From Acinetobacter sp. ANC 5054 (lineage in GTDB: Bacteria; Pseudomonadota; Gammaproteobacteria; Pseudomonadales; Moraxellaceae), in NCBI RefSeq assembly GCF_002135295.1, contig NZ_NEGG01000006.1, positions 62,001-126,000 of the forward strand: a stretch of DNA of 64,000 nt. Reading direction: 5' to 3'. A program made the translations under genes and the position numbers. The notes beneath the pieces are model-generated. The model made no database searches. It saw nothing but the letters and a program-made list of their open reading frames with translations, and was not told the DNA's origin. The first letter of the stretch is position 1. Every line of letters starts with the position of its first letter. Shown here in pieces: positions 4,117 to 24,954 of the stretch.

Positions 4117-6876
4117 TTATACACAGTCATTCTTATCCAGCGCAGAAATTGCAGCTGGATCAATTAATCTTTGCCATAGCTTGCAAACGACCACTCGGGT
4201 ATCGCGCCAATCGTCAGCTGAAACTTGCATGGATTGATTCGCAAGTGCTAAACGGTGGCTCTCGGCTCGTTCACGGAGATAAGCTTGAATCAATGCTGTC
4301 GCATCGGCGCTGGATAAGCAATCCGTTCTTGCGGCATCCTCAAGGATTCGTACGTTGTCAGAGTAATGGGCGAGATCGGGATTCGACCCACTCCATGCTA
4401 ATACTGCATACTGTGCCATAAATTCGATGTCAACGATACCACCTGCATCTTGTTTTAAATGAAAAATTCCATCTTTTTGCTGCTCTTTAGAAGAACCCAG
4501 ATGGTCTTTCATTTTTTGGCGCATTTTCAGTACTTCTGCACGTACATTGTTCTCATCACGCGGTTGCGTCAAAATATTACAGCGTAAATTTTCAATTTCA
4601 ACGCGCAAACTATGTTCACCTGCAATCGTTCTTGCACGAACCAATGCTTGATGTTCCCAGACCCAAGCATTTTTTTGTTGATATTGTTCAAAGGCCTTTA
4701 AACTTGTCACTAATAATCCCGCCTCGCCTGAAGGACGTAATCGCGTATCGACTTCATACACACGACCATCCAAACTTTGAGTGGTCATCAAAGACATGAA
4801 TTTTTGTGCTACACGCATTGCAAATTCAAAGCCACTGATTTGCTTTTGCCCATCGGTATCGGCTTGCTCATCTATATAGTGAATGAACACAAGGTCTAAG
4901 TCCGAACCATAGCCCAGCTCAATTCCACCGACTTTGCCATAACCAATCACTGCAAAAGCTGTATGATCAATCGAACATCTCTCACCGTCAGCATCGACAG
5001 GGAAGCCATGCTTTTTGGCAACAATCTGGTAAGCCAAATGCAATGCAGCATTTACCGACACCTCTGCAATATCGGTCAAAGCATCTGAAACTTTCATCAA
5101 TGGACTTTCTGCTAAGACATCACTGGCCGCAACAGCTAAAACATTGGATTTCTTAAATAAACGAAGAACTCGCATTTGATCCTCAACTTGATCAATTTCA
5201 ATGCGAAGCAATTGCTGACGGAGTGAATCTTCCAAATCCTTACGTTTTGGCAACTCGAAATCCATAGAAAGGAATTCATCCAGCAATACCGGATAATGGG
5301 TTAATTCTTCACAAATCCATGGGCTCACGGTGGCCATTTTGACTAAACGCTGTAAGGCCCCTTTGCTTTCAATCAACATCACCAAATACACGGTACGACG
5401 CATCACTGATTCCACCAAAGGCATCAGGCGCAGTAGTGCGACTTGAGGTTTATCCGACTGTAAAATGGCTTCGATCAAATGTGGCCAAAAGGTTTTTAAG
5501 CGCTGTACCGCTTTTGCAGGCAATTTCTTTAAGGCATGACCGTACCAAAATTCGTGAATCAGATTTTTTGCGTCATCATCCAGTACATCAGCCAACTGCG
5601 TTTCAAGTTGGCTAAAACTTTCAGTCAAAGGATCAGGTTCTTTTTCTTTAATCAGGTGCTCAAATTGATAAATCACTTTGGCACGTTTTTGATTCAGCAC
5701 ATCAAGGAACTCGTTCCATGTAGCAAAACCTAAAGTATCAATGATGCGTTGACGCGGCTCATCTTCATGCGGTAAAGACTGGGTTTGTTGATCATTCAAC
5801 GCTTGAATTGCATGTTCAATCCGACGCAAGAATAAGTATGCATCTTCCAACTCTGCCACTGCGGTTTTTTCCAGTAAGCCGACTTCACCCAAATGATGCA
5901 GACTGACCAAACATTGGCGGTCTTGTAGCTCAAGTTTGGAGCCGCCATAAATCAGCTGAAAGACTTGGACAATAAACTCAACTTCGCGTATCCCCCCCGC
6001 ACCTAATTTAATATCATCTTCAATGTTGCGACGCAGGACTTCACGTTCAATCATCGCTTTCATTTCGCGCATGGCTTCAAAAGCGGTGTAATCCACGTAC
6101 TTACGGAATACGAAAGGACGCGTCATATCGAGTAGATCATCACCCTCTTTACCACCCGTCACAATACGCGCTTTAATCCATGCATAGCGCTCCCATTCTC
6201 GACCATGCTGGCTTAAATATTTTTCTAATGCCGCATGACTAATCGCTAGCGCTGAGCCATCCCCCCAAGGGCGCAAACGCATATCCACACGGAAAACAAA
6301 ACCATCAGCGGTAATGTGATCGAGCAAATAAATCAGTTTTTGTCCCCATAAAATACAGAACTGCTGTACATCAATGCACTTACGACCGTTGGTTTCGCCT
6401 TGCTCATCAAAAGCAAAAATCAGATCAATATCACTCGATAAATTCAGCTCTTGTGCACCTAATTTACCCATGGCAACCACAATCAGGTCTTGAACTTGAC
6501 CTTTATAACCAACAGGTTCGCCATGCTTTGCCACCAACGGGGTTAGAGCAAATGCTTTTGCCGCGCAAATCGACGCATCCGCAAAGTCCGAGAGTTCTCG
6601 TGTTAAGGTGACCACATCGGTGAGTTGATTAGCATCTTGCCAAATCCAACGAAACATCAGACGTGCACGAAGTATGCGTAACGCACGCATCCAGGCATTT
6701 TCATCTGTTATTTGATCGAGCGTTTGAGAAATAAAGTTTTGGATTTGAGCGGTAGAGAGCGAGCTTTGAAACTGATCAATTGAATAATCTTGATCTAAAC
6801 TGGTCTGGTGAATGCCCAGTACTTGTTCTGCATATTGACTGGCACGTAACGTTTTCTGCAATTGCTGCGCATTCAT
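4117..6876 (-). CDS. glnE: Bifunctional glutamine synthetase adenylyltransferase/adenylyl-removing enzyme
   Basis: Cytosolic regulator that adds AMP to, or removes it from, glutamine synthetase under control of PII. The 919-aa length is close to that of other GlnE proteins. Two nucleotidyltransferase domains are visible: the N-terminal one with SSDIDLIFAFDE near residue 150 (deadenylylase half) and the C-terminal one with GYGSDLDLVFIHY near residue 650 (adenylylase half). Each is followed by arginine-rich RLRPWGDG / RLRPSGEAG and GGIREVEF / GGIVDIEF segments. The start ATG at 6876 is preceded by GGGAA. It is the first gene of a probable glnE-ilvE unit. A predicted amt gene lies elsewhere in the window, but no glnK is seen beside it inside the window. 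Confidence 0.97.
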   Translation of the reverse strand: MNAQQLQKTLRASQYAEQVLGIHQTSLDQDYSIDQFQSSLSTAQIQNFISQTLDQITDENAWMRALRILRARLMFRWIWQDANQLTDVVTLTRELSDFADASICAAKAFALTPLVAKHGEPVGYKGQVQDLIVVAMGKLGAQELNLSSDIDLIFAFDEQGETNGRKCIDVQQFCILWGQKLIYLLDHITADGFVFRVDMRLRPWGDGSALAISHAALEKYLSQHGREWERYAWIKARIVTGGKEGDDLLDMTRPFVFRKYVDYTAFEAMREMKAMIEREVLRRNIEDDIKLGAGGIREVEFIVQVFQLIYGGSKLELQDRQCLVSLHHLGEVGLLEKTAVAELEDAYLFLRRIEHAIQALNDQQTQSLPHEDEPRQRIIDTLGFATWNEFLDVLNQKRAKVIYQFEHLIKEKEPDPLTESFSQLETQLADVLDDDAKNLIHEFWYGHALKKLPAKAVQRLKTFWPHLIEAILQSDKPQVALLRLMPLVESVMRRTVYLVMLIESKGALQRLVKMATVSPWICEELTHYPVLLDEFLSMDFELPKRKDLEDSLRQQLLRIEIDQVEDQMRVLRLFKKSNVLAVAASDVLAESPLMKVSDALTDIAEVSVNAALHLAYQIVAKKHGFPVDADGERCSIDHTAFAVIGYGKVGGIELGYGSDLDLVFIHYIDEQADTDGQKQISGFEFAMRVAQKFMSLMTTQSLDGRVYEVDTRLRPSGEAGLLVTSLKAFEQYQQKNAWVWEHQALVRARTIAGEHSLRVEIENLRCNILTQPRDENNVRAEVLKMRQKMKDHLGSSKEQQKDGIFHLKQDAGGIVDIEFMAQYAVLAWSGSNPDLAHYSDNVRILEDAARTDCLSSADATALIQAYLRERAESHRLALANQSMQVSADDWRDTRVVVCKLWQRLIDPAAISALDKNDCV

Positions 6877-6972: not shown

Positions 6973-8244
6973 CTAACCTAAAGTAATGTCCTTTTTAATC
7001 TCTGTACTTAAGGCTTGGTGTCCACTGGTCGCAATCGGTAAGCGTACTTTAAAAATTGTCCCTTCACCTTCTTTAGAATTGACCTCAATTTCACCAAAAT
7101 TTAAGTCAACAAAGCGTTTACATAAGACCAGACCAAGTCCAGTTCCATGTTCACCCGCTGTCCCTTTAATACTCACCGTCATTTTTTGCTGAAATAGCTC
7201 ATTAATTTGAGCTTGTGACATCCCCAAACCAGTGTCTTGAATGGCAAATTGCACCTGATCTCCCTGCGCTTCTGCAACTATCGAGACTACCCCGCGTCCA
7301 TCGGTATGAGTGAATTTCAACGCATTTGAAACCAAGTTCTGCATTACTGAGGTGATCATATTAATGTCAGCATTTACTTTGGTGCCGACAGGAATGGTAT
7401 TGATTAATTGAATATTTTTCTTCACTGCTAAGCTATTTAAGACATCGCAGACAATTTTTGCAGATTGATGTAAGTCAAAATTGATCGGGTGATAGACGAA
7501 TCGCCCACCTTCTGCCATCGCCCAATTTAATAGACTTTCCAATAAGTTATAAGTCGATTGCGTGGTGTCGTATAAATAGTCCGCAATATTTTGCACATTG
7601 GATTCATCCAAAGTTTCGCGCTCTTGTGCAAGCACTTCGGAAAAACCCAATAGTCCGTGAAACGGTGCTCGTAAATCGTGAGCAATAATTTGGAAGAACT
7701 TGGTTTTACTAAAATTAAGTGCAGATTGCTGTTCATATGCTTCTTTTAATTCTGCATTTTCCACCCGAAGCTGAATAATATTGACCAAGCTTTGGACAAA
7801 CTCTTCAACGATCTTGAGTTGCTTCTCGACGAAGTCCAGCACTTGATCATCAAACAATAGAACTTTACCAATGCTTTCTTGATCATATTTTAAATCAAAA
7901 GCAACCAAACGTTCATGCCCAACACCCAGCTGATGTATGTAATCACTAAATTCTTGATAATTATTCGAGTATTTATCTACACGCGTTTGATTTTGAAAAA
8001 ATTGATCTAGTTTTTGCTCATCGGCTTTGGCAAGAAAAGCTTTGACTTCATGATCAGAGGCATACCAAATATAAGGTTCACCTTTAAATGTCAACAATGC
8101 ACTATCGGTCTGTAATATGCCTCGTGCAAACTTTAAAAAGTCCTCAATGCGGTTATCATCAGTATAGACCCCCATCAATAAAGACAGGCGACAGGAAGCC
8201 AAAAGTTCAGTCTGTGTTCCAATTTCTAGTAATTGTAAAACCAT
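6973..8244 (-). CDS. Orphan sensor histidine kinase with N-terminal GAF-like region
   Basis: 423-aa soluble histidine kinase. About residues 10-160 resemble a GAF-type sensory domain and no membrane segment is seen. A short coiled coil leads to the HisKA motif FQIIAHDLRAPFHGLLGFSE near residue 195. An HATPase domain follows, with N-box NLVSNALKF, G1 DTGLGMS and G2 GTGLGL. The ATG at 8244 has GGGAG 7 nt upstream; a TTG 10 codons earlier is the only alternative. No receiver domain or response regulator gene is adjacent, so the partner is encoded elsewhere. The signal is unknown. Bordered by glnE downstream and a long gene-free stretch upstream. Confidence 0.88.
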   Translation of the reverse strand: MVLQLLEIGTQTELLASCRLSLLMGVYTDDNRIEDFLKFARGILQTDSALLTFKGEPYIWYASDHEVKAFLAKADEQKLDQFFQNQTRVDKYSNNYQEFSDYIHQLGVGHERLVAFDLKYDQESIGKVLLFDDQVLDFVEKQLKIVEEFVQSLVNIIQLRVENAELKEAYEQQSALNFSKTKFFQIIAHDLRAPFHGLLGFSEVLAQERETLDESNVQNIADYLYDTTQSTYNLLESLLNWAMAEGGRFVYHPINFDLHQSAKIVCDVLNSLAVKKNIQLINTIPVGTKVNADINMITSVMQNLVSNALKFTHTDGRGVVSIVAEAQGDQVQFAIQDTGLGMSQAQINELFQQKMTVSIKGTAGEHGTGLGLVLCKRFVDLNFGEIEVNSKEGEGTIFKVRLPIATSGHQALSTEIKKDITLG

Positions 8245-14008: not shown

Positions 14009-14044
14009 AAAAAACCCCAAGTCTTAATAAGCTTGGGGTCTTTT
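14009..14044 (-). terminator. Terminator-like hairpin between att-like site and integrase fragment
   Basis: Stem CCCCAAG / CTTGGGG with a 10-nt loop. On the minus strand it ends in a T run, and on the plus strand TCTTTT follows. It occupies the position that a tRNA terminator has at the intact end (24798-24826), between tRNA 3' end and integrase start. Confidence 0.65.
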
Positions 14045-14051
14045 AGAATTT

Positions 14052-14071
14052 TGGTCCGAGGGTCAGACTCG
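14052..14071 (-). repeat. Degenerate att site: partial copy of tRNA-Leu 3' end
   Basis: TGGTCCGAGGGTCAGACTCG here matches the tRNA-Leu 3' end at 24868-24888 (TGGTCCCGAGGGTCGGACTC plus G) except for one missing base and one substitution. It lies in direct orientation, 10.8 kb from the intact tRNA, and marks the far end of the younger island. Similarity stops beyond this block. Confidence 0.7.
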
Positions 14072-14149
14072 GTTGTATCAATAAAATACTGATATAAATA
14101 AACTATATTTACATTATAAAAGTTATATCCTTAAACGTATCCTTATTAT

Positions 14150-14737
14150 TTATTCCTTAGCAACTCTATAAACCGTTGCAATTCCCACACTTACAGCTTT
14201 TGCAATTTCTTCTTTTGTCATATCACCTTTGCTCAATAACTGTTTAATACGCTCATGTTTAGCTGTGTTAGCAGTCTTACCTTTAGGTTTATAACCTGAA
14301 CGTGCCAATCCCTGCTTAATTCGCTCTTTGCGTTTGTCGTTATCCAGCTTAGCCATTGTTGCTAATAGATCAATCAGCATGGCATTAATTACATTCAATA
14401 TCTCGCCTGTCATTCCATCATTAATGGTATGTGTGGTTGGTAGATCAGCAACGATTAAACGCAAACCCTTGGCCTTGATCTTATCTTTTAGAATTGCAAA
14501 GTCATCTTGTGATAGTCGGCTAAGTCTATCCACACTTTCAACTAAAAGAATGTCGCCCTTATTTGCCTCTGTAAGTAATTGGTTTAATGCTGGGCGTTCT
14601 AGCTTCGTACCTGAATAGTTTTCTATGTATGTGTTGTATTGATCGCCATAGCTTTGGCTGAATGAGACAAGATCACTCAATGCTCGTTCTGCATCTTGAT
14701 CTTTGGTGCTTGCTCTAACATATATTCTAATTGTCAT
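14150..14737 (-). CDS. Serine recombinase (resolvase/invertase family)
   Basis: Site-specific DNA recombinase of about 195 aa. The N-terminal catalytic domain has IRIYVRAST near the start with the nucleophile serine, then EN-SGTKLERPALNQLL, and the conserved VESVDRLSR arginine motif near residue 75. The C-terminal helix-turn-helix (KEEIAKAVSVGIATVYR) binds the site. ATG at 14737 has AAAGG 8 nt upstream; an ATG six codons earlier is less well placed. It sits at the distal end of the island, and repeated inverted motifs directly upstream are a plausible res site or operator. It could resolve element multimers or invert DNA; no invertible partner sequence is obvious. Confidence 0.9.
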   Translation of the reverse strand: MTIRIYVRASTKDQDAERALSDLVSFSQSYGDQYNTYIENYSGTKLERPALNQLLTEANKGDILLVESVDRLSRLSQDDFAILKDKIKAKGLRLIVADLPTTHTINDGMTGEILNVINAMLIDLLATMAKLDNDKRKERIKQGLARSGYKPKGKTANTAKHERIKQLLSKGDMTKEEIAKAVSVGIATVYRVAKE

Positions 14738-14879: not shown

Positions 14880-15377
14880 CTACAAACCAAAGCCCCCTGT
14901 AAATTCACTTTGATTGAATTCAACTTTTTTATTAACAAAGTACTTAAAGAATAAATTAAGTAATTCGAGAAAATCTTCAGTGGACTTATCATCATATTTA
15001 TATGTGTAAGGTCCATTCTTTTTATACTGAGTTACATCTAATATTTCAAAGGTTTCTGAATGCGCTGCCTTTTTTCTTTTCATAGTTACTTTAACTTTTA
15101 ATCTTTTAGTAGCACGCTCAGCAAAATTATATTCTTTCTCATTACGCTTCTCCGTTATAGGATTAACAATTTGAATTAGAAGAATTAATTCCTTGTACTT
15201 AAAGGATAAAATATTATCTTCTTTAATCTCATGATCGAAATCGGGACAGGTAGAAAGGAACTCTGTTGTAATCAAATACTTTAGATGGTTTACATGCTCT
15301 TCCAATTGTCTAGCTTTCTCACTTTTATAGGCTTCAAATTCGTTTTGTTGTTCAATAAGTAATTGAAGTCCATCCAT
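14880..15377 (-). CDS. Unknown protein at distal end of the island
   Basis: 165 aa, family not recognised. The N-terminal 30 residues look like a coiled-coil helix (LLIEQQNEFEAYKSEKARQLEEH). The rest mixes beta and lysine-rich segments (RLKVKVTMKRKKA), and the C-terminus is a conserved-looking hydrophobic helix plus EFTGGFGL. The ATG at 15377 is chosen because AAGAAGAG lies 8 nt upstream. The frame stays open to 15542, but the extra 55 residues look non-coding in composition. AT-rich, lies in the usual cargo position between the recombinase and the replication module; function unknown. Confidence 0.55.
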   Translation of the reverse strand: MDGLQLLIEQQNEFEAYKSEKARQLEEHVNHLKYLITTEFLSTCPDFDHEIKEDNILSFKYKELILLIQIVNPITEKRNEKEYNFAERATKRLKVKVTMKRKKAAHSETFEILDVTQYKKNGPYTYKYDDKSTEDFLELLNLFFKYFVNKKVEFNQSEFTGGFGL

Positions 15378-15758
15378 ATCAAATGCTCTTCTTTGAAAAT
15401 AAGGGATAATCATTAAGTATAGTCGATGAAGATTAATGCCGTAACTGCCTATGTTCACTCTTAAAACCACATTGATGGTTTTGCCGTAGTGTTCCCTTTG
15501 GCAAGGGGAAATACCTTTCCAAAATTTTTGACTGTGATGCAATTACTCTCCGCACCTATTGGCTTGACCGATCAAGGGGATATGGGGTCAAAAGTCAAAG
15601 GGAAACACCTAAATAAAGACCGTCCCCCCATGAAATTTTCTCTTGGTCAAAAGTCGTAGGGAGGGGGTATCATTTTTGCGGTTCATATTGGTGCAAAAAT
15701 AGAGAAACACTAAGAATATGGTATGTTTTGCCAATAATTAAATATCTATATTTTCTAT

Positions 15759-15800
15759 GTGTTACAGATGTTACATAGGTTACAAGACTGATTTATATAG
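15759..15800. repeat. GTTACA triad, copy 1 (iteron-like)
   Basis: Three GTTACA hexamers starting at 15761, 15770 and 15779, exactly 9 bp apart. The run continues into AAGACTGATTTATATA, which is shared with copy 2. Confidence 0.7.
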
Positions 15801-15955
15801 TTTTTTCAATTCCCCCATATAAATAATGATGAATATATATACATATATAAACTTACTCTTATTTGTAAAATTACTTATATATCAATATCTTATATAGTTT
15901 TTATTCAATTAATTATAGTTGTATCTTTTCTGCTACACATATCTATTATTTTTGA

Positions 15956-15998
15956 GATGTTACAAGTGTTACACAGGTTACAAGACTGTTTTATATAA
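15956..15998. repeat. GTTACA triad, copy 2 (iteron-like)
   Basis: GTTACA at 15959, 15968 and 15977, again 9 bp apart, followed by AAGACTGTTTTATATA. It is a 198-bp-spaced direct repeat of copy 1. Confidence 0.7.
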
Positions 15999-16327
15999 AT
16001 TTATCTGTAACACTCTGAACCTTTGAATCATGTTACATGGGGTACGATTTAGGGTCAGGGGGGCATGAAAAATATCTTAATTCGCCTTAAGCGGACACCG
16101 CCCCTCTTTCTCACGTATAAAAAAATTTCCAATTTCGATAAAAGTAAATAAAGATTGGAGCAACTAGGGCAAGATTATTTATCTTTTGGCAGTTTTGAAT
16201 AAACTTTATGAGTTTTTATTTGTGGCTTATCTAGGATTCTCACCTACATTACAAAACAGTGCCAAAATTTCGGAATGAATATCCTCGCCCTTGCCACCCT
16301 ACGGCGAAAATTTAAAATCTGATTGAT

Positions 16328-16984
16328 TTAATTAGCTTGGGCAAACCTATTGTGGTGCTGAAAAGCTTCCATCGCAGGATGGGTGAAATTAGGGAATAAA
16401 TAGAATCTAAAATTGCTATCGTAATAAAAGATGTTCTGTTCAATTAGGGCATTAATAAAATGCTGGGCTTGTTCTTGATTCACTAGGAATTTCTGTATTA
16501 GGTCTTGTCGTACATGCTCAGGCTTAACAAGGGCATTTTCTACAGGATTATTAATTTTACGCAAGTTGCTACGGTATCGCTCTAGCCGATCAAAATAGGT
16601 CTGTATCACTTCTTGCTGTATATCGTGGTCCAATATTTCGGCATTTGATGCAGTCGAATTGCTCAGTATTTCGATAATTTCTGCTTTAGACTGTTTTACT
16701 TTCTGTATTTCAATATCTGTGATGCGCTCTGCATGATGTAAACGCACAGTTTGGCTGTCTATTAGCTCTATTTCTGCACCCTCTTGCTGGATATGCTCCA
16801 ATAGCTCATAACATGATTGAAGCCGTAAATGACGTATTAGCTGTGGTTTGTATTTACGTACAAGGTCTGTGCTTTGCTGGGGTATATCATCAGAATGATG
16901 TAAGCGTAAAACTTGATTGTTGATTAGCTCAAGGCTTGCGCCATAGTGCTGTAAAACTTGGCTAATTAACTGTGCAATATTCAT
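16328..16984 (-). CDS. Protein with two TubC_N-like repeats, replication-module partner
   Basis: 218 aa. Residues 5-53 and 60-107 are clear internal repeats: each has a helix (LISQVLQHYGASLELI / LLEHIQQEGAEIELID), a beta segment ending in RLHH (27-30 and 81-84), and a lysine-rich helix ending in LIRHLR / IIEIL. This pattern resembles the TubC_N docking fold. Such small domains are found next to Toprim and helicase proteins in islands and phages. The C-terminal half is helical and unassigned. The gene follows the DUF927 helicase by about 60 bp on the same strand, so it may dock to that protein. Docking is inference. Confidence 0.7.
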   Translation of the reverse strand: MNIAQLISQVLQHYGASLELINNQVLRLHHSDDIPQQSTDLVRKYKPQLIRHLRLQSCYELLEHIQQEGAEIELIDSQTVRLHHAERITDIEIQKVKQSKAEIIEILSNSTASNAEILDHDIQQEVIQTYFDRLERYRSNLRKINNPVENALVKPEHVRQDLIQKFLVNQEQAQHFINALIEQNIFYYDSNFRFYLFPNFTHPAMEAFQHHNRFAQAN

Positions 16985-17046
16985 TATTTAAGATCACCAA
17001 TAAAAAGACTGCACGGCGTTAAATGCTCGTACAGCCTGTAATTGAG

Positions 17047-19584
17047 TTAAATATCTATGGTTGTGCCTGTGTTTACGTCATCCGTATATGGATTGGTGGC
17101 TTTCTCAATGTCATAGCTAAACATTGAAGTATTGAACACATATAGCCAAACTGGATTCTTACTTTCTGGAGTACGTTCCTGTTTGGTTGTTTTACCATTA
17201 GCACAGTCTAACCAGCCGTGTTTTTTAAGCACTTTTGCTACTTTTTTAGGATCAAAACCAGTACAAAGCTCCTGTTTAAATTGCTCTTTAAAGAACAAAT
17301 AACGCAAGGTTTCGCGCTGTTGGGCATTTACCACTTTATAGCCCACTCGATACATGGTTTTTTCTCTAAAGCTCTTGGTATCTGTGCTTGCATCATCAGC
17401 ATGATCTGAATTGCCATAGCTTGCCCGTTTATTGCCCTCAATTAAGGTATCAAAACGGCTATTTCCGTTCGCCTCAAAAAATGCTCTGACTTGCTGGAGT
17501 ATCAGCCGATCTTCAAAGTCCCCGACCATTTCAAAGCTGTTTAGCCATGTCTTAAATACGCTGATTACAGCCTCTAAAGCCCTGCCCTTTTTCCAGCCTG
17601 TAATATTTGCTTGTGTTGCCAGCTCGCCAGCCACGGCGACAACAGCAAAACGTGAAGCCACTCGGGCAATGTGCCCTTGTGCATTATCGGGAGTAAGTTT
17701 TGCTTTATATTGTTGGTACAGTTTTAAAGCGGTTTCAGTCATTTGACCTTTATCATTGGTCAAATATTCAAGCCATGCTTTACCAGCCACACCATAAGCA
17801 TTGATTGAATTTTCATACAACATATTGGCTTGCTGTGAAGCATCAGGGGCAAAATCCACAAGATCAAATACACCATGCTCACAAGCATCTAAACTGATTT
17901 CAGGTAAACGTATTTCTTGCCCAAGTTTTGCCGTTTGCCCAATTTCGTTCAAAATCTCTTTAAATGTCTTTTCGCCACTGGATAAGAACAATACACGCCA
18001 TTGCTGTGGGGCTTTGGTTATCGCTGTTCTTGCCATACGCGCCTTACCTTGACCATTGGCAAGCATATACACGGTTTGCCCAATATCTTTGGCACTGGCT
18101 TCGCCAATTTCATCCAATACCAAAAAACCATCATTGTGCATAAAGGCTGTTTGCTCTAGGGCATTACCTGTAGATCGCCAAGTACGGTAATACTCTTTCG
18201 GGTGTCCCCATACACTGCATGCAAGATAAATAGCAGTACTCTTCCCTTTGGATGATGTGCCATTAATATGAAAGCCACCGCCTTGCTGATTTAATGGTTC
18301 AAGTAACTGCCCAGCAAAGGCACACGCTACACTAAATACAAGCTTTGAATGGCTTTCGAGTAAAAGACTTACGCCATTTTTCCACGTTTCTAATTCACCT
18401 TTGAATTGAAAGCGGTTATCTAGCCCATCTGTACGCTGATACACGATCACTTCATCATGCTTAGTGGCTGGATTGCTATAGGTTTCTGTCGGCAATACAT
18501 AACGATGACCATGCCAGCCAACACTATCCACACATAAAGCAAATTTATCGACTGGATAACTCATAAGGTAGATTTGAAAAAGCTCTCTGCCTCTGCGGTC
18601 AGGGGTAATAATCACCCCCTGATTGGATAGGGCTTTTCGTGACTCTGTACCATCACCTTGAAATAGCTCATTCGGTACAGCCCAGTTATGGTGAATAAAA
18701 GCATCATCTTGCCACTGCAATAAACGCCCCCAATTATTACTGGTGTTATCCCTTGTTTTAGCCGTTACAAGAATTGGACTAGATATAAAGCGTTCCCGAT
18801 ATTCACCATTTTTCAGTTTCTCAATATAGAACACGCCTTTATCGTGTACCTCAAAACTGCCATTTTCCCACTCCATTGGCTCTGCAAGCATACCATCAGG
18901 TAAATTATCGCTTGGTGATGGTGGCTGATACTGTGCTGTGATTAAGGCTGTAATATCGCTTGCTGTCGTGGTTAGCCCCCGTTGCTTGCGTAGATCTGCC
19001 CAATCCATTACATCGCCTTTTTCGGGCAAATTCAGCCCATCCAAGACGATATATCGAATATCACAACCCAATACATCGAGTTGCTGGGCAATTTCATTAA
19101 AAAACTTGGTCCCGGCCTTGTCGTTATCTGCCCATATCACAATGTCATGCTTAGCCAGTGGTTTTATGTCGGTTTTATCCGTATTGCCACTGCCTCCGCA
19201 TGTTGTCGCTATTAAACCCAATGAATTAAGAAAATCGGCTTTCTGCTCACCTTCAACGATATAAATCGGCTGTTTTTCAGCAAGATTTAATACAAGTTCA
19301 AGGGCATACAACGGCTTTTTACCTTGGCCAACTGGATACAGCTCATTGAAATCAGGATCACCAAATTTAAAACCTCGTTCACCACTGGAGAATACACGTA
19401 TCCATTTATCACCAGTATGGTAGTTTTTGGCTCTCACTTTCCAATACACTGGCATGCCGTGACCATTGGTATAGCTGAATAGGTACTCAAACTGATAGCC
19501 GTTTTTAACCTCGCGTTCTGCCAGCTTTTGAGCATGGATAAAAGCTTGTTCCTGGACTTCCTGATAATCTAAAAATTCAGTCAT
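17047..19584 (-). CDS. Toprim/DUF927 replication helicase (P4 alpha-like)
   Basis: 845-aa island replication protein. A Toprim primase-type domain is at about residues 105-165, with VEGEQKADF (E111) and WADNDKAG (D153, D155). A DUF927 helicase domain is at about 245-560, with Walker A GTSSKGKST at 442-450 and Walker B LVLDEIGE at 488-495. The C-terminal part (720-845) is unassigned. It lacks the zinc finger that primases need for template recognition; that part is encoded by the overlapping upstream gene (19581-19916). Together they would prime and unwind the element's own origin. Start ATG at 19584 overlaps the upstream stop by 4 bp. Confidence 0.88.
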   Translation of the reverse strand: MTEFLDYQEVQEQAFIHAQKLAEREVKNGYQFEYLFSYTNGHGMPVYWKVRAKNYHTGDKWIRVFSSGERGFKFGDPDFNELYPVGQGKKPLYALELVLNLAEKQPIYIVEGEQKADFLNSLGLIATTCGGSGNTDKTDIKPLAKHDIVIWADNDKAGTKFFNEIAQQLDVLGCDIRYIVLDGLNLPEKGDVMDWADLRKQRGLTTTASDITALITAQYQPPSPSDNLPDGMLAEPMEWENGSFEVHDKGVFYIEKLKNGEYRERFISSPILVTAKTRDNTSNNWGRLLQWQDDAFIHHNWAVPNELFQGDGTESRKALSNQGVIITPDRRGRELFQIYLMSYPVDKFALCVDSVGWHGHRYVLPTETYSNPATKHDEVIVYQRTDGLDNRFQFKGELETWKNGVSLLLESHSKLVFSVACAFAGQLLEPLNQQGGGFHINGTSSKGKSTAIYLACSVWGHPKEYYRTWRSTGNALEQTAFMHNDGFLVLDEIGEASAKDIGQTVYMLANGQGKARMARTAITKAPQQWRVLFLSSGEKTFKEILNEIGQTAKLGQEIRLPEISLDACEHGVFDLVDFAPDASQQANMLYENSINAYGVAGKAWLEYLTNDKGQMTETALKLYQQYKAKLTPDNAQGHIARVASRFAVVAVAGELATQANITGWKKGRALEAVISVFKTWLNSFEMVGDFEDRLILQQVRAFFEANGNSRFDTLIEGNKRASYGNSDHADDASTDTKSFREKTMYRVGYKVVNAQQRETLRYLFFKEQFKQELCTGFDPKKVAKVLKKHGWLDCANGKTTKQERTPESKNPVWLYVFNTSMFSYDIEKATNPYTDDVNTGTTIDI

Positions 19585-19916
19585 TTGTCATTCTCCCATG
19601 CGCCCAAGTCTTTACACGCTTCAATAAAAGACTTACCTGTAAGCAATTGGTGAAATGCAATCAAATCACCGCCTTTGGCTTCGCAAGCCATGCACTTAAA
19701 GCAACCTTTACGGCTGTTTATACGTAGGCTTGGGGTACTATCATCATGAAAAGGACAAATCATTTCTCGCCATTCGCCACGACCTTTGACGGCGTAGCCT
19801 CTAGCGGTTAAATATTCGATAGGATCAGGAAGTAATGCCCGATTTAAGCCAAATTTCTTTGACTTATCGGTATTGGTGTTTCGGTATTTCCCTAGCGTAG
19901 GGTGCGCTTTTTTCAT
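19581..19916 (-). CDS. CHC2-type zinc-binding primase domain protein
   Basis: 111-aa stand-alone version of the DnaG N-terminal zinc domain, which reads template DNA for primer initiation. Ligands are visible in CPFHDDSTPSL and CFKCMAC (one C, one H, two C), followed by the GGDLIAFHQL segment usual in this family. The stop overlaps the start of the Toprim/DUF927 gene by 4 bp, so the two are coupled and probably form a split primase-helicase. The upstream stretch (about 45 residues) is basic. Adjacent to the next gene with no gap. Confidence 0.88.
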   Translation of the reverse strand: MKKAHPTLGKYRNTNTDKSKKFGLNRALLPDPIEYLTARGYAVKGRGEWREMICPFHDDSTPSLRINSRKGCFKCMACEAKGGDLIAFHQLLTGKSFIEACKDLGAWENDK

Positions 19917-20183
19917 TTATTCGCCCTCGTATTCTTTTTCTAAATCACGAAAGCGAATTTCATAAACATGGGCTAGCTCAATAGAAATATTCATGAGTTT
20001 GTCCAGCTCATCAAAATGTTCAAGCTGTAGGGAGTAACCATTTTTAATATGGCTTTTAAGTTGATAAATTTGCTCTTGTACTTCATCAAATAAAAAAGCA
20101 AGGTGGGCAACATTGCCTTTGGCTTGAGTTGCCAAATCAGATAAATCTATTGAGTGATCTTTTAAAATTGAAGTATTAGGCAT
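19917..20183 (-). CDS. Small helical protein of unknown function
   Basis: 88 aa, acidic and predicted almost all-helical (VAHLAFLFDEVQEQIYQLK, then LDKLMNISIELAHVYEI). No domain recognised. The ATG at 20183 has AAGGAG 9 nt upstream and is preferred over a start 12 codons earlier. It abuts the CHC2 gene and overlaps the end of the Ash-like gene, so it belongs to the same transcription unit. Confidence 0.7.
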   Translation of the reverse strand: MPNTSILKDHSIDLSDLATQAKGNVAHLAFLFDEVQEQIYQLKSHIKNGYSLQLEHFDELDKLMNISIELAHVYEIRFRDLEKEYEGE

Positions 20184-20490
20184 GATTATGCACTCCTTGT
20201 AGTTTAGGAGCTTTACCATTCACGACCAAATGAGGGTGGCAAAGCTGAAAAGGGTTGGTCGATAGGTCTACAAGGTTCCCTACACACTCGAGAGTGTCCC
20301 TCTCCAGCTTCGCCATAAAATGCAAACGCATAGAGATAGTACGCACAAAAAAAGTCCATATAAAGGACTGTGCGCCTTGTAGAAAATAGCCGACCAAAGC
20401 TAACCCAACTGCTTTTTGTTGGGCATGTTTAGGATATAAAGCTTTACTGTTGTTTGCAATGTGATTTTGCAGTAATGGTATGGTAAGCAT
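20176..20490 (-). CDS. Ash/ICD-like small phage-island protein
   Basis: 104 aa. The stretch FVRTISMRLHFMAKLERDT and the following CVGNLVDLSTNPFQL segment resemble the short Ash-type proteins (P4 ash) often annotated as host cell division inhibitor Icd-like in islands of Enterobacteria and Acinetobacter. The family's function is poorly understood. No membrane segment or enzyme motif is evident. It overlaps both neighbours by a few bases. The assignment rests on recalled similarity and is moderate. Confidence 0.6.
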   Translation of the reverse strand: MLTIPLLQNHIANNSKALYPKHAQQKAVGLALVGYFLQGAQSFIWTFFVRTISMRLHFMAKLERDTLECVGNLVDLSTNPFQLCHPHLVVNGKAPKLQGVHNHA

Positions 20491-21134
20491 TAAAAAAGCC
20501 CTCCATTTTCTGCATGGGCTTTTACCGCTTGATTTAATCGTTTGATGGCTCTTAAATGTAAGGCAATGCTGTCTTGCCCTTGAATATGATATTTCCGTGC
20601 ATCTGCTCGCATGCTATGGGTGATTAAGTTGAACAAACAACCATCCACACCAATACAAGGGCTGTTATGCTGCGGATTTTTATTTAGCGTATGCCCTAAG
20701 TGAATATAATCATGGCGGTCTTGTGCAAGCTCAGCATAGTTGATGACAGTTTTAATCACCCCTAATGGCAAAATAAGAGCTTTTTCAAGTTGGTGAAACC
20801 CTTGATTGTTACGCCAATCAATTAGAGTTTCTGCATTATAGATAGGCACATAAGCCGTTATTTCTATGGCTATCCGCTTTCCATTAGAAAAAATAAAACC
20901 ATCTTGAATATAATTTAACTCAGGATTAAACACAGCATACTCTTGGTGCGCAAAGGCAGAGTGGGATTCAGCAGGCAAGGCTTTATAACTGACCAACCAA
21001 CAAAATTCAGATTTCCTCCCAATACTGGCAATGTGTGAAATAGCCTTTGTTAAATAAATATAGGCTTGTGCCTGAAATTTATCTCCGATATTGATATGAC
21101 TGTATTTAATTTCTTTTGGCGTTTCATTTTTCAT
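20490..21134 (-). CDS. Unknown conserved island protein, 214 aa
   Basis: No domain recognised. Mixed alpha/beta protein with a segment KRIAIEITAYVPIYNAETLIDW in the middle and basic helix RAIKRLNQAVKAHAE at the C-terminus. The start overlaps the stop of the AlpA-like gene and the stop overlaps the start of the Ash-like gene, so it is firmly in the operon. A role in regulation or replication of the element is possible from position only. Confidence 0.65.
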   Translation of the reverse strand: MKNETPKEIKYSHINIGDKFQAQAYIYLTKAISHIASIGRKSEFCWLVSYKALPAESHSAFAHQEYAVFNPELNYIQDGFIFSNGKRIAIEITAYVPIYNAETLIDWRNNQGFHQLEKALILPLGVIKTVINYAELAQDRHDYIHLGHTLNKNPQHNSPCIGVDGCLFNLITHSMRADARKYHIQGQDSIALHLRAIKRLNQAVKAHAENGGLF

Positions 21135-21448
21135 GATTTAGCCTCCGTTTCTTTGGATTTCATCCATTCAGCTATATCTGTCGCACGCCATACGGTGATG
21201 GTTGGGCTAAGTTTTATTGGCTGGGGGAATTCACCCTTACGGACCCATTCCCATAGTGTTTTTTCAGATACACCAATTAGCCCTTTGCTGGCTCTACGTT
21301 CGCCAATTACTCGGGTTTTGCCCTTGTTAATGCCTGATTTATATTGATGGATACGTGCTGGACGTTCAGGAATATTGGCAAGGTCTTTCATGCGGTAATA
21401 ACGCTCTGATCCTTGTGGGTTTCCACTCGACTTGTATTGTTCAAGCAT
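21131..21448 (-). CDS. AlpA-like helix-turn-helix regulator/excisionase
   Basis: 105-aa DNA-binding protein. The core GVSEKTLWEWVRKGEFPQPIKL, followed by VWRATDIAEWM, is the winged helix-turn-helix of AlpA/excisionase proteins, which activate or direct excision of P4-like elements. The ATG at 21448 is preceded by a strong GGGGGAG; a GTG two codons earlier overlaps that site. An N-terminal extension of about 55 residues with many Lys/Arg is unusual for AlpA (about 70 aa). Confidence 0.8.
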   Translation of the reverse strand: MLEQYKSSGNPQGSERYYRMKDLANIPERPARIHQYKSGINKGKTRVIGERRASKGLIGVSEKTLWEWVRKGEFPQPIKLSPTITVWRATDIAEWMKSKETEAKS

Positions 21449-21462
21449 GACCACTCCCCCAC

Positions 21463-21699
21463 CTAAGCCGATTGCACTGTATTGGCTTGCTTTTGGTTGT
21501 TATGCCATTGCACCAATTCGGCATAATCAAAATAGACAGCCGATTGCCTTGTTTTTCCTGTCTTATATGGCACTGGAAAGGTCGCATCTTTTGCCATGAG
21601 TTTGCGTAGCCCCTCTGCTGTAAGGTCTAGCATTTGACAAGCCGTTTTTTGAGATACTCGTATAGGTGTGGAGTGATTAGGTAAAGTATGGATTTGCAT
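21463..21699 (-). CDS. Small helix-turn-helix DNA-binding protein (AlpA/MerR-like)
   Basis: 78 aa. The segment VSQKTACQMLDLTAEGLRKLM followed by PVPYK and YFDYAELVQWHN is a helix-turn-helix plus wing typical of excisionase or AlpA-like factors. It is the first gene of the regulatory/replication unit and lies 14 bp upstream of the larger AlpA-like gene. Likely controls the operon or excision. Confidence 0.75.
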   Translation of the reverse strand: MQIHTLPNHSTPIRVSQKTACQMLDLTAEGLRKLMAKDATFPVPYKTGKTRQSAVYFDYAELVQWHNNQKQANTVQSA

Positions 21700-21881
21700 C
21701 TGTTAGCCCTCGTTGATATATGAGGGCTATTCTGTGTTTCAAGAAAAGTACAAAACAGATTGCAACTAAAAATTTAAGTTGTCATTTATTAAATATATGA
21801 ATTTTATTAGATTTAATTAAAAAAAATAGTTCATATGGTTTTATCAACTCCAGCGATCATTTTTCAAATAATTGAAAAATA

Positions 21882-22715
21882 TTATTTTTTTCTAACTTCA
21901 AAATTCAGAAAGGGGCTATCTTTAAATTTTCGATTAAATCGTTTTTGATGCGCTATTTCTTTTTGCCTATTGGGTAAATTCTCCCACTCTTTGATCCAAC
22001 CTATAGCTAAACGTGGTATTTGTGTACTATCTGTATATTTTTCATCTATTAATTTTTTATTTTCTTCACTCGCTCCTTTTAGCCTTAAGCCTGTTAAAGC
22101 ATTATCGAAAGACTTTTCAAAACTTTTTATAATTTCTTCTATTTCATTTTCATATTGACTAAATTCTCGAATGTACTTTTTCCATTCAGGGATATTTCTT
22201 TTATATTTCTCCCATTCTGTTTTTGCTCTTTGTCGTGTAATTTTATACCTAGTTTCACCTGATATTTTACCGCCTTTAGACTGCCCCTTAGTATTTCGTA
22301 CTTTTTGTTTAGGTTCTCCAGTGGGTGATAAGGCACCTAAAATTGCTAACTGATTTTTAGCATAAGACAAGTTACTTAATTGAGTATCAAAGTCCATCGT
22401 TTTAAAGTTTCTAAAAAAATGTTCTGTTGTTTCCAATCCAAAATACATAGCCAAGTAATAATCTAGATTTGCTTTTTTATCTTTTTTTACCTCAATGTGC
22501 TGTGTGTTAAGTCCATTTTTTCTTAGATATGTCATGACCTCATAATCAACATCACTAAAGTCATAAGAATGATCATAACATTGCACAATATATGAAATAT
22601 CATCTTGCACATCATACATTTCACTGCGAATTTTATTAAAAATTCTTTCTTGAAAATCAAAAAAATGGTGACGTGCTTCTTCTGGGTCTAATTCATATGG
22701 ATTAATTTCCATCAT
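21882..22715 (-). CDS. Unknown cargo protein, 277 aa
   Basis: Family not recognised. Acidic N-terminus (ELDPEEARHHFFDFQERI), a middle with GGKISGETRYKITRQRAKTEWEKYKR that looks like a basic, DNA- or RNA-contacting helix, and a C-terminal helical part rich in Lys/Glu ending LNFEVRKK. AT-rich. It lies alone between the regulator operon and the integrase, the common position of cargo genes in such islands, with about 180 bp before the next gene. No enzyme motif, signal peptide or membrane helix seen. Start ATG 22715 has GGGAATGAG upstream at loose spacing. Confidence 0.65.
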   Translation of the reverse strand: MMEINPYELDPEEARHHFFDFQERIFNKIRSEMYDVQDDISYIVQCYDHSYDFSDVDYEVMTYLRKNGLNTQHIEVKKDKKANLDYYLAMYFGLETTEHFFRNFKTMDFDTQLSNLSYAKNQLAILGALSPTGEPKQKVRNTKGQSKGGKISGETRYKITRQRAKTEWEKYKRNIPEWKKYIREFSQYENEIEEIIKSFEKSFDNALTGLRLKGASEENKKLIDEKYTDSTQIPRLAIGWIKEWENLPNRQKEIAHQKRFNRKFKDSPFLNFEVRKK

Positions 22716-23308
22716 ATTTACTCATTCCCAAATTAATGAAATTCAAAAACTATATAGTGCCTTATATTTGCATATGCTCAACTTATTCCACAAAAATTAA
22801 ATCATTCATCTTGCCTATGCAAAGTACAGAGGACTGTTCTAAAAGTTGTCATTTTGGTCAATAAAATAGGTGTTAATCCAAATATTCAGGCTTTCCAGCG
22901 TTCACACGGTTGGCAATTCCCTATTCTGTAACTCATTCACCATATGCAAAATTCAGAATAAAATAGGTTACAAAATTGGCTACAGTCAAAATTTAAATTT
23001 AACAGATATAAAACAATAACTTATGAAAATAAAAATATTCATTATATGCCGTAAAAACCTATTCAAAAGTAGGTTACAGTCACAAAACCATGTCCTTAAA
23101 ATTTAAAATAGTTCAATAAAAACAAATGTGTAACCTATTAAATAAAAAGTGTTACAGCTTTTTAAGATTAATTCCTTATAAAACAATAATGTAACCTTGT
23201 AACACCTGTAACACTCAAAAAAACACTATATCCGTAAAACATAAAAATTAGAGCTTGGGCAAAATTCACAATTTAAAGGCTGTTTTTGCGTATGCTATGT
23301 ATGCCCAA
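22716..23308. other. Non-coding, motif-rich stretch between cargo gene and integrase
   Basis: No credible gene. Contains GTTACA or its complement TGTAAC at 22927 (inv), 22967, 23073, 23129 (inv), 23151, 23190 (inv), 23198 (inv) and 23207 (inv). The sequence TATAAAACAATAA occurs twice (about 23007 and 23178). It mirrors the motif content of the left non-coding stretch. Confidence 0.6.
23190..23212. repeat. GTTACA triad, copy 3, inverted orientation
   Basis: TGTAAC at 23190, 23198 and 23207: spacing 8 and 9 bp. It is the reverse complement of the triads at 15761 and 15959. Confidence 0.65.
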
Positions 23309-24679
23309 TTAAGCTATGAATGAATTTGTCATTTCAGCCAATTTAAGCTTAACCAACTTCGCATATTTAATGTTAATTACGCCCTGCTTTGCCTGCTCCA
23401 TCAATGAAAGGCTAAACTCCATCGGGCTAATAAATTTCTCTTGGTTAGCTTCTAGGTAATCACTCCACCAACAAAGCATCATTCTACGTTCTTCCATAAA
23501 TTCAGCATGGTGTATATAAGCCAGTCTCACGCCATTGCGTTCTTGGTGGCTCATTTGCTTCTCTACTGCATCTTCAGTAAATAAAGTGCTTTCAATCAAT
23601 GCACCACAAGCCATGCCCCTAAAGCCATGAATACATACATCATCTTGGGTGCTGTACCCCATACGTCTAATCATGTCATTGACTGTGTTTTCACTCAGAA
23701 AACCGCCCATATCTACACTATTAGGGAATACATTCAAGGAAATACCGCTATAAACCTGAGTTTCTTTAATGAGTTTCAATGCTTGTGGAGATAAAGGGAT
23801 AAGATGCTTTTCTTTCATCTTTGCGCCTCTGTGAGAATCTTTATATCCAGCAATCAATTCCCTTGTAGGCGGTATGGTCCATATCTTTTTATCAAAATCA
23901 AACTCATTCCAGCGTGCAAAGCGTAGCTCACTAGATCGGGCAAAGGTATGCAAGGCAAACTCTAAGCACAGTTTGGTAATTGGGTTGCCTCCGTCATTCC
24001 TTAAACGGCTGAAAAATTCAGGCAATCGTACCAATGGCAATTTAGGGTAATGCTTTGTCTTTCTTGTAATAGTGATTGCATCACTCAATGCCACGGCTGG
24101 GCTAAGGTCAATATAGCCCTTAGTAATGGCATAAGCGAAAATGCCTGAAAACCTTTGCCGTGTTTTACTTACAATTTCTAAATAGCCCTTTTCTTCAATC
24201 TTACTTAGGACGCTATACAAATCTCGGGTTTTAATCGTATCTATTGGTTTGCTACCAATGACAGGGAAAACGTACATTTCAAAGTTGCTTAAGGCTTTTC
24301 TCGCTGTGTCTTGATTCCACTTGCCAGTAGCTACATATGCCTCGTGCCAATCTCGTGCAATACGTTCAAAACTAAACTCATCGCTATTTTTGGCTTCTTC
24401 AATCTTTATTTGATTAATAGGATCAATATTATTGGCTAATTGATTTAAATAGATTGCACGGCGTTCCCGAGCTTCTTTGAGTGTAAGTGCTGGATAGTTC
24501 CCTAATGTCATTAATCCATCTTTACCATTAGGTCTTTTATATTTGAATCGCCAAACTTTCGAGCCATTCTTACGGACAAATAAAATTAGACCTTGCCCAT
24601 CATACAAGCTGTAATCTTTTTCTTTAGGTTTTGCGCTATCACATTGAGTAGAAGAAAGTGGCTTAATCTGTTTAGCCAT
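23309..24679 (-). CDS. Tyrosine site-specific integrase (P4 family)
   Basis: 456-aa recombinase that inserts and excises the island at tRNA-Leu. Domains: N-terminal DUF4102 arm-binding domain (about 1-90, with LYDGQGLILFVRKNGSK and MTLGNYPALTL), core-binding domain (about 100-195) and catalytic domain (about 215-410). Catalytic residues seen: R248 (ARSSELR), H351 and R354 (HGFR), H377 (MSHQE) and Y388 (AYIHHAEF), so the enzyme looks intact. The gene starts 189 bp from the tRNA 3' end, oriented away from it, the usual geometry for tRNA-targeted P4 integrases. A fragment of a related integrase lies at 13681. Confidence 0.95.
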   Translation of the reverse strand: MAKQIKPLSSTQCDSAKPKEKDYSLYDGQGLILFVRKNGSKVWRFKYKRPNGKDGLMTLGNYPALTLKEARERRAIYLNQLANNIDPINQIKIEEAKNSDEFSFERIARDWHEAYVATGKWNQDTARKALSNFEMYVFPVIGSKPIDTIKTRDLYSVLSKIEEKGYLEIVSKTRQRFSGIFAYAITKGYIDLSPAVALSDAITITRKTKHYPKLPLVRLPEFFSRLRNDGGNPITKLCLEFALHTFARSSELRFARWNEFDFDKKIWTIPPTRELIAGYKDSHRGAKMKEKHLIPLSPQALKLIKETQVYSGISLNVFPNSVDMGGFLSENTVNDMIRRMGYSTQDDVCIHGFRGMACGALIESTLFTEDAVEKQMSHQERNGVRLAYIHHAEFMEERRMMLCWWSDYLEANQEKFISPMEFSLSLMEQAKQGVINIKYAKLVKLKLAEMTNSFIA

Positions 24680-24797
24680 AAGGATTTCACTCCGAATGAG
24701 GATACGGAAGTTGACCGCAGTGGATATATCCTCAAATGTATCCTTATTATTTTACGCTGTATAGTGGTATATGTTTGTATGTTTCTGCATTTAAAAA

Positions 24798-24867: not shown

Positions 24868-24954
24868 TGGTCCCGAGGGTCGGACTCGAACCGACACATC
24901 ATCTCTGATAGTGGATTTTGAATCCACCGCGTCTACCAATTTCACCACCTCGGG
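24868..24954 (-). tRNA. tRNA-Leu (anticodon CAA)
   Basis: 87 nt including the encoded CCA. Acceptor stem CCCGAGG pairs with CCTCGGG, followed by discriminator A and CCA. D-loop region TGGTGAAATTGGTAGACGC, anticodon stem GTGGA / TCCAC with loop TTCAAAA (anticodon CAA), a long variable arm typical of Leu, and GGTTCGAGTCC in the T arm. Its 3' end is the attachment site of the adjacent island and remains complete, so the tRNA stays functional. Confidence 0.95.

Follow-up and report, generated by a model that had tools for sequence, protein, structure and literature searches.

GTTACA triads of a P4-like island in Acinetobacter: probable iterons of the island's own replication origin, read by a DUF927 primase-helicase

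The locus considered here raises the question of what the short, regularly spaced repeats on both sides of a set of replication genes are for. The stretch of Acinetobacter sp. ANC 5054 DNA that was analysed (contig NZ_NEGG01000006.1, positions 62,001 to 126,000, 64,000 nucleotides; hereafter the window) contains a P4-like island adjoining a tRNA-Leu gene, and inside this island two arrays of the hexamer GTTACA bracket the replication operon. With a probability of roughly 0.87, the triads in these arrays serve as iterons of an origin from which the island itself replicates, and the C-terminal winged helix of the DUF927 primase-helicase that it encodes is their reader. The presence, conservation and phasing of the arrays, their co-variation with the winged helix, a natural chimera and the predicted fold relation were computed in this work. 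The arrays comprise the following elements:

15749..16037, forward strand: array A, two 59-bp direct repeats each with a triad, plus single copies at 16006 (reverse) and 16032 (forward); from counts and conservation the likely origin, laid out like crr/ori of P4.
15785..15958, no strand: AT-rich stretch between the array A triads, a candidate unwinding element (19% G+C, against 37% for the island).
22927..23212, reverse strand: array B, an inverted triad plus five single copies, recognised by counts and conservation, upstream of the leftward replication operon.

The left non-coding stretch (15543-16327) holds eight copies of GTTACA against 0.43 expected, with a maximum of 5 in 2000 dinucleotide shuffles, and the right one (22716-23308) holds eight against 0.51 expected, with a maximum of 4; both stretches are AT-rich. 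Another 23 copies are spread over the remaining 62.6 kb, and the whole-window count of 39 against 31.8 expected is not significant, being reached by 9 of 100 shuffles, so that the excess is local and not window-wide. The nine triad positions given by the original prediction are all exact (15761/15770/15779 and 15959/15968/15977 in array A; 23190/23198/23207 in array B), and the single copies that it put at about seven number seven in the two stretches (16006, 16032, 22927, 22967, 23073, 23129 and 23151). Its statement that the motif occurs in these non-coding stretches only holds as a strong excess there but is inexact, because open reading frames (ORFs) of the island contain single copies at 15031 and 18764. 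The longer repeat in which it had placed the first two triads is a 59-bp direct repeat (15749-15807 and 15947-16005, 81% identical, 198 bp apart), and the two triads flank 174 bp of 19% G+C. GTTACA is the only hexamer of the window with exact triads whose copies are spaced 8-10 bp; the corresponding figure from 50 shuffles is 0.1 per window, not counting hexamers made up of one or two letters. In the whole 3.39-Mb genome the triad pattern, with 2-4 bases between copies, occurs at these three places only and the reversed pattern nowhere; the density of the hexamer in the arrays, which was to be compared with host DNA, is not matched there. A plasmid search with the array A stretch returned no similar DNA, and an Rfam scan of both arrays found no structured RNA at gathering scores, the one such RNA of the operon lying outside them.

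Conservation of the arrays was examined in a sample of 175 genomes of the genus, in which DUF927 primases were matched at E 1e-20 or better in 36 genomes and 41 places, 40 of which were compared, the window's own being excepted. Counting the one that contains the window, eight genomes encode a primase 92-100% identical to that of the window; all eight carry at least one exact triad, as homologous islands should if the triads matter, and all keep both arrays. Across the genus the exact triad was found in 11 of the 175 genomes, in nine of them at DUF927 islands, among these G144, where it stands at the diverged island L052 with a different integrase, and otherwise in two unrelated tandem repeats (G041, G064). 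The reversed control pattern occurred in a single genome, G065, twice. When each array of the window was aligned with seven other loci, iteron bases of array A were 97.6% conserved against 75.6% for the other bases, with none of 784 circular shifts as good, and those of array B 96.4% against 76.1%, with one of 592 shifts as good. In G092, whose integrase is 78% identical, array B is kept with a triad spacing of 7 and 9. Viral contigs yielded no close relatives of the window primase; its distant protein relatives include 24 phage and 72 plasmid records.

Some further GTTACA-rich places were recorded in the same survey. The longest triad run of the genus lies at an unrelated place in G041 (locus L137, about 7066-7137), where GTTACATCA is repeated in eight tandem copies. 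At L070:14850-15200 a GTTACA-rich, partly palindromic array stands beside the portal gene of a P2-like prophage, and a related stretch is present in a P2-like phage record (L182, MF417929, 206-705); the names portal and terminase were given in L070 after visual inspection and on account of resemblance to L182.

The protein proposed to read the arrays, and the parts of it that bear on the reading, are as follows:

17047..19584, reverse strand: Toprim + DUF927 primase-helicase of 845 aa, the proposed initiator (Pfam, PDB sequence and fold matches).
17095..17349, reverse strand: C-terminal winged helix-turn-helix (HTH), aa 746-830, the proposed iteron reader (structure models, fold matches).
17221..17250, reverse strand: second HTH helix, aa 779-788, with PK at 779-780.
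17146..17190, reverse strand: wing, aa 799-813, with five columns separating GTTGCC from GTTACC carriers (alignment A1).

By Pfam, phmmer and Foldseek alike, the helicase is of the DUF927, Cch and SaPIbov1 Rep kind. The Pfam match to DUF927 has E 2.9e-79, and Toprim_2 reaches 22.0 bits, just below its cut-off of 22.1; phmmer matched the PDB entries 8tch (E 1.1e-11) and 5dgk (E 1.4e-11), and Foldseek ranked 5dgk (Cch) and 8tch (SaPIbov1 Rep) best (E 2e-21 to 5e-21), with a mean predicted local distance difference test (pLDDT) score of 79 for the 845-aa model and low overall TM-scores, 0.33-0.37 of the model. The original prediction had called the protein P4 alpha-like, which is apt for the role and place of the gene but not for the family: P4 alpha belongs to D5_N/DUF5906/Pox_D5, and BLAST detects no similarity between it and the window protein. 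A separate model of the C-terminal 214 residues (mean pLDDT 73) gave winged-helix fold matches to TcpK (Z 11.8 over 96 residues, root-mean-square deviation 2.9), SaPIbov1 Rep (Z 9.9 over 144 residues, deviation 4.4) and Cch (Z 7.2); these Z values come from a second comparison, Foldseek having found no match for this model at E 0.001 or better (best 1.2e-3). The solved origin-binding domain of P4 is not among the matches listed, which carries no weight either way. The best Pfam match of this part is HTH_56, the HTH of Cch, at E 3.2e-4, below its cut-off.

The relation between arrays and initiator becomes clearer in diverged relatives. At 32 diverged loci of the genus the primase is 36-56% identical to that of the window over the matched part, and the 350 bp on its 3' side contain an over-represented hexamer that scores above 15 in 29 loci and 13.6-14.9 in the other three, against 8 of 455 control stretches above 15 downstream of other ORFs of at least 100 aa in the same loci. 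An array in the place of a SaPI/PICI-type origin, immediately 3' of the initiator, is clear in 29 of the 32 and weak in three; in the window clade a 218-aa ORF lies between. Seven iteron types were found in these loci: GTTACC, GTTGCC, GTAACC, GTCACA, GTCCAC, GTCCCA and GCCCCA; L052 and L056 share the GTTAC(A) core of the window on the other strand, and the remaining diverged loci differ. Same-orientation spacings of 30 bp or less are 9 bp in 100 of 142 cases at 31 diverged loci (L045 left out) and in 27 of 27 cases at seven loci of the window clade. More distant homologous islands, then, carry 9-bp-phased arrays beside the same gene, mostly of other sequence. A typical full array has a triad of opposite orientation at each end and extra copies between, over 200-290 bp; some are shorter or decayed.

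Some arrays lie, or seem to lie, in coding sequence. At L045 the primase gene is extended at its 3' end (protein of 932 aa), and this coding extension contains the iteron array; the scored stretch was taken at the match end, inside the extension. In L151, L152 and L177, iteron arrays, e.g. repeated TGTAACGCC, appear by eye to stand in possible coding sequence downstream of the DUF927 gene.

Across 25 non-redundant proteins, iteron distance is correlated with winged-helix distance when helicase distance is held constant (partial r 0.37, 0 of 5000 permutations). In the GTT/GTA clade (14 proteins) the partial r is 0.28 for the winged helix (195 of 5000) and -0.27 for the helicase; in the GTC clade (9 proteins) the values are 0.81 (31 of 5000) and -0.21. 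Within each clade the iteron type, as judged from these alignments, follows the winged helix and not the helicase core. Iteron types were assigned by us after lining up the hexamers by eye, as the best hexamer is sometimes shifted or strand-turned: TGTTGC of L053 was filed as GTTGCC, TGTTAC of L046 as GTTACC, and TGTCAC of L048 and GGTCAC of L066 as GTCACA. The window motif is nearly palindromic (TGTTACA/TGTAACA), and its reading as a GTAAC type is a choice; when it is read as GTTACA or omitted, the partial r is 0.34 and 0.37 (0 of 5000 each). Omission of L048 gives 0.30 (2 of 5000), and of L048 and the window together 0.29 (8 of 5000). The underlying alignment A1 lacks 8 of the 41 loci (L059, L061 and L068, and L039, L040, L041, L044 and L063 of the window clade).

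Near-equal iterons allow the comparison to be narrowed. Between the four GTTGCC and six GTTACC carriers compared, five columns in aa 240-830 separate the two types, and all of them fall in the wing (799, 800, 809, 810 and 813); among the 210 splits compared, the true one comes first when such columns are counted within aa 746-830, although others have more of them over 240-830. L045, L046 and L062, GTTACC carriers with diverged C-termini, were left out, and some of the five columns are broken by them (K810 in L046 and L062, R813 in L046). In addition, the window clade and both GTAACC lineages (L052, L056) have PK at 779-780, a pair absent from every other type in A1. The wing columns and PK 779-780 are candidate iteron contacts. 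Outside the genus, a Salmonella plasmid (L184) combines the helix DSRK with GTTACC as predicted, although by eye it has R at the column of 813; an exception is L177, whose GTAACC goes with DKKQ and not PK.

In L048 the two domains point to different clades. The helicase resembles clade 1 more (mean identity 63%, against 33% with clade 2), the winged helix clade 2 (57%, against 30% with clade 1), and the switch lies near aa 720-750. L048 groups with clade 1 in the helicase tree (support 1.0) and with clade 2 in the winged-helix tree, at its base and not inside it (0.992; clade 2 without L048, 0.867), with mean paths of 0.82 to clade 2 and 1.97 to clade 1. Its iterons, GTCACA, are of clade 2 type, and its array layout resembles clade 2. 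L048 thus looks like a natural chimera, with the helicase of clade 1 and a winged helix and iterons near clade 2. The part of the gene that encodes the winged helix adjoins the array, so that a single exchange could carry over reader and sites together. The flank of this locus also holds a xanthine riboswitch aptamer match above the gathering score (L048:2414-2473, reverse strand).

From these results we infer binding, melting and replication, together with a division of roles between the two arrays, along the following lines. The DUF927 primase-helicase encoded between arrays A and B would be the initiator, and its C-terminal winged helix would bind the 9-bp-spaced copies side by side. Protein bound to the two array A triads may melt the AT-rich stretch between them, where, after excision of the island, an MCM-like helicase ring would be loaded and synthesis primed. 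Array B, upstream of the replication operon, would be a second binding region, standing to array A as ori stands to crr in P4. The original view of the triads as iteron-like arrays read by a replication initiator is supported by conservation, by the 9-bp phase and by the way the types track the winged helix, all evidence of sequence comparison.

The layout of the island, on which the role of array B depends, is set out below. From right to left, the order is tyrosine integrase, array B, a 277-aa ORF, a small ORF, AlpA and further ORFs, followed by the CHC2 zinc protein, the Toprim/DUF927 primase-helicase, the 218-aa ORF, array A, a 220-aa ORF and a resolvase. The island is bounded by the tRNA-Leu(CAA) gene on the right and by a tRNA-like remnant (14041-14071) on the left.

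24868..24954, reverse strand: tRNA-Leu(CAA), likely integration target (tRNA call).
24725..24752, forward strand: right copy of a 28-bp imperfect repeat (26/28).
23309..24679, reverse strand: tyrosine integrase (family profile match).
21131..21454, reverse strand: AlpA-like regulator (family profile match).
20232..20320, reverse strand: C4 antisense RNA within the replication operon (Rfam RF01695, 64.1 bits, E 5.1e-11).
19581..19916, reverse strand: CHC2 zinc-finger protein, a primase zinc domain as a separate gene (family profile match).
16328..16984, reverse strand: 218-aa ORF between initiator and array A, no function assigned (weak match to phrog_1659).
14124..14151, forward strand: left copy of the 28-bp imperfect repeat (26/28), near the island end.

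RF01695 is presumably the P4/P1-type immunity RNA. It lies in the operon of P4 too (74.9 bits), and among relatives it was found in 9 of the 13 tested (two of the nine in the window clade; 13 of the 40 loci obtained were tested) and not in L046, L048, L049 and L053. In P4 too, two iteron regions bracket a leftward operon ending in a primase-helicase, and arrays A and B mirror crr and ori. In the P4 record NC_001609, crr (4291-4590) directly follows the 3' end of alpha and comprises two 120-bp direct repeats whose iterons are spaced 9 bp; the ori lies ahead of the operon and contains an inverted triad with a spacing of 10-11 bp. By layout, compared with the annotation of NC_001609 only, the island has the same split region, with ori upstream, crr downstream and shared iterons. 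Unlike in P4, the repeats measure 59 bp rather than 120 bp and the iteron sequence is different. By BLAST and Pfam the initiator is unrelated to alpha; the island is thus P4-like in layout and C4 RNA and SaPI/Cch-like in initiator.

A variant of the same explanation, to which we give not much less than even odds, holds that array A is the sole origin and array B is regulatory, the bound initiator repressing its own leftward operon or controlling copy number. This would suit the position of array B, ahead of the leftward operon with the initiator gene at its end, and also the diverged relatives, whose top clusters include just one strong array, located 3' of the initiator; on the other hand, array B is about as conserved as array A, and in P4 the ori occupies the equivalent position upstream, with the crr on the downstream side.

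It is far less probable that the tyrosine integrase uses the triads as arm-type sites, or that the AlpA-like protein binds them as its excision factor, so that they would serve excision and not replication. The integrase gene does adjoin array B, integrase arm sites are often short spaced repeats, and P4 arm repeats are annotated near attP. However, the repeat found close to each island end near the att positions is a different one, the 28-bp imperfect TATATCCTYAAAYGTATCCTTATTATTT, whose motif differs from GTTACA and whose copies are likely to be the integrase arm sites. Nor does the motif follow the integrase: L047 and L053 have integrases 59-60% identical to that of the window yet TGTTGC(C) iterons, L052 and L056 have integrases 24-30% identical yet GTAACC iterons, and GTTACA does not cluster beside the integrase at any of 11 loci where this protein is 50-62% identical and the 12-14 kb covered hold no DUF927 primase (these loci are half of the 22 integrase places outside the window clade, L047 and L053 being two more). 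The integrase arm-site array was rejected on these grounds. An AlpA operator, and with it the earlier suggestion of the AlpA-like protein as the binder, is disfavoured by L059 and L061, where an AlpA 62-64% identical accompanies GTTACC. Least credible of all is the reading as an operator of some general regulator, or as a simple repeat unconnected with the initiator. Slippage can generate short AT-rich repeats, and G041 has an eight-unit tandem; but from relative to relative the sequence changes and the 9-bp phase and the position next to the initiator stay constant, the iteron types follow the winged helix, and L048 looks like a chimera.

Several points weigh against reading the arrays as the initiator's iterons. 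In the window clade array A is separated from the 3' end of the initiator by the 218-aa gene, and the four best windows of the diverged relatives show no counterpart of array B, i.e. no second cluster of their own iterons. With both clades pooled, the helicase too is correlated with iteron distance once the winged helix is allowed for (partial r 0.28, 2-3 of 5000), so shared descent is not wholly removed. The GTTACA-rich array of L070 lies beside the P2-like portal gene, away from that locus's own GTCCAC array. In other genera of the Gammaproteobacteria, where 27 of 369 genomes have DUF927 matches, only 11 of the 27 loci have an array scoring at least 15 within 400 bp, and the upstream control window exceeds 15 in two (L151, L167); this set excludes the window's locus and leaves L178 and L179, pieces of already counted proteins, unused. 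An array is present at 9 of the 18 of these loci with the C-terminal domain (E <0.01), against 2 of the 9 without it. Five DUF927 plasmids were examined out of the 72 records. In four of them (L184, L185, L186 and L187) the 400 bp downstream contain an array scoring above 15, which in L186 falls inside the next annotated gene, but L183, which also carries repM, has no array downstream of its DUF927 gene. Finally, PMC7449626 describes a DUF927 gene in Vibrio islands as dispensable for excision, mobilisation and integration.

The reading can be carried further, as a tentative and on balance doubtful combination: the wing and the second HTH helix would set the iteron; reader and sites would be exchanged as a cassette, as in L048, the stretch coding for the winged helix being the last of the gene and adjoining the origin; and the window clade would have a SaPI/Cch-type initiator in a P4-type island, with a split two-part origin under the C4 RNA, both parts being needed for replication.

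An initiator with iterons downstream of it is already known from Staphylococcus aureus pathogenicity islands (SaPIs), from Gram-negative phage-inducible chromosomal islands (PICIs) and from P4. The accessible text of PMC6092414 places the origin of Gram-positive PICIs immediately 3' of the initiator gene and describes the Gram-negative ones as organised alike, several Escherichia coli PICIs always having two iteron sets flanking an AT-rich region. That of PMC7581432 relates Cch, which contains DUF927, to SaPIbov1 Rep, and has the C-terminal domain of SaPI Rep act on iterons directly downstream of the gene. The window protein resembles SaPIbov1 Rep (8tch) as a DUF927-related, MCM-like initiator helicase with a C-terminal DNA-binding domain, but the island differs in the gene between initiator and array A, in the second array B, and in having a Toprim part, C4 RNA and AlpA as P4-type elements do. 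Cch (5dgk) of the staphylococcal cassette chromosome mec (SCCmec) shares DUF927, the same helicase fold and HTH_56 as the best sub-threshold C-terminal match; it belongs to a staphylococcal cassette, with 18-19% identity in the fold alignment and a TM-score of 0.36-0.37 over the whole model.

Other systems resemble the island in part. EcCICFT073, a Gram-negative PICI, has an iteron array in 9-bp steps right after its primase gene (taken as pri-rep from its place), and the portion of PMC6092414 at hand reports a test of replicon function for pri-rep-ori; its initiator, unlike that of the window, is of the D5_N/DUF5906 type and not DUF927. In Vibrio phage-inducible chromosomal island-like elements (PLEs), according to the passages available from PMC8263062, the origin-binding domain likewise co-varies with the origin and modules are swapped, a phage nuclease being suggested as the cause; the initiator, however, is the unrelated RepA_N with no helicase (PMC7145576, in part), and the iterons are of about 30 bp. 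TcpK of pCW3 (5vfx/5vfy), the best winged-helix fold match, binds tandem 9-nt boxes chiefly via its beta-wing in the extract of PMC6137059, but at a conjugative transfer origin, with boxes 3 bases apart, and is not part of a helicase. Among the literature matches listed, no title concerned these Acinetobacter origins.

The P4-like split layout combined with a C4 RNA is less usual, as is the natural series of initiators and iterons. What is added here is such a series within one genus, in which seven iteron types keep the same 9-bp phase beside related initiators, together with the near-equal types GTTACC and GTTGCC, set apart by five wing columns, and a natural domain chimera. The series and the chimera therefore make a change of origin specificity in a satellite initiator directly testable. 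Origin specificity may decide whether two islands in one cell compete, and the series may bear on the ways in which islands could evade phage enzymes directed against their origins, an escape of the kind described for Vibrio PLEs.

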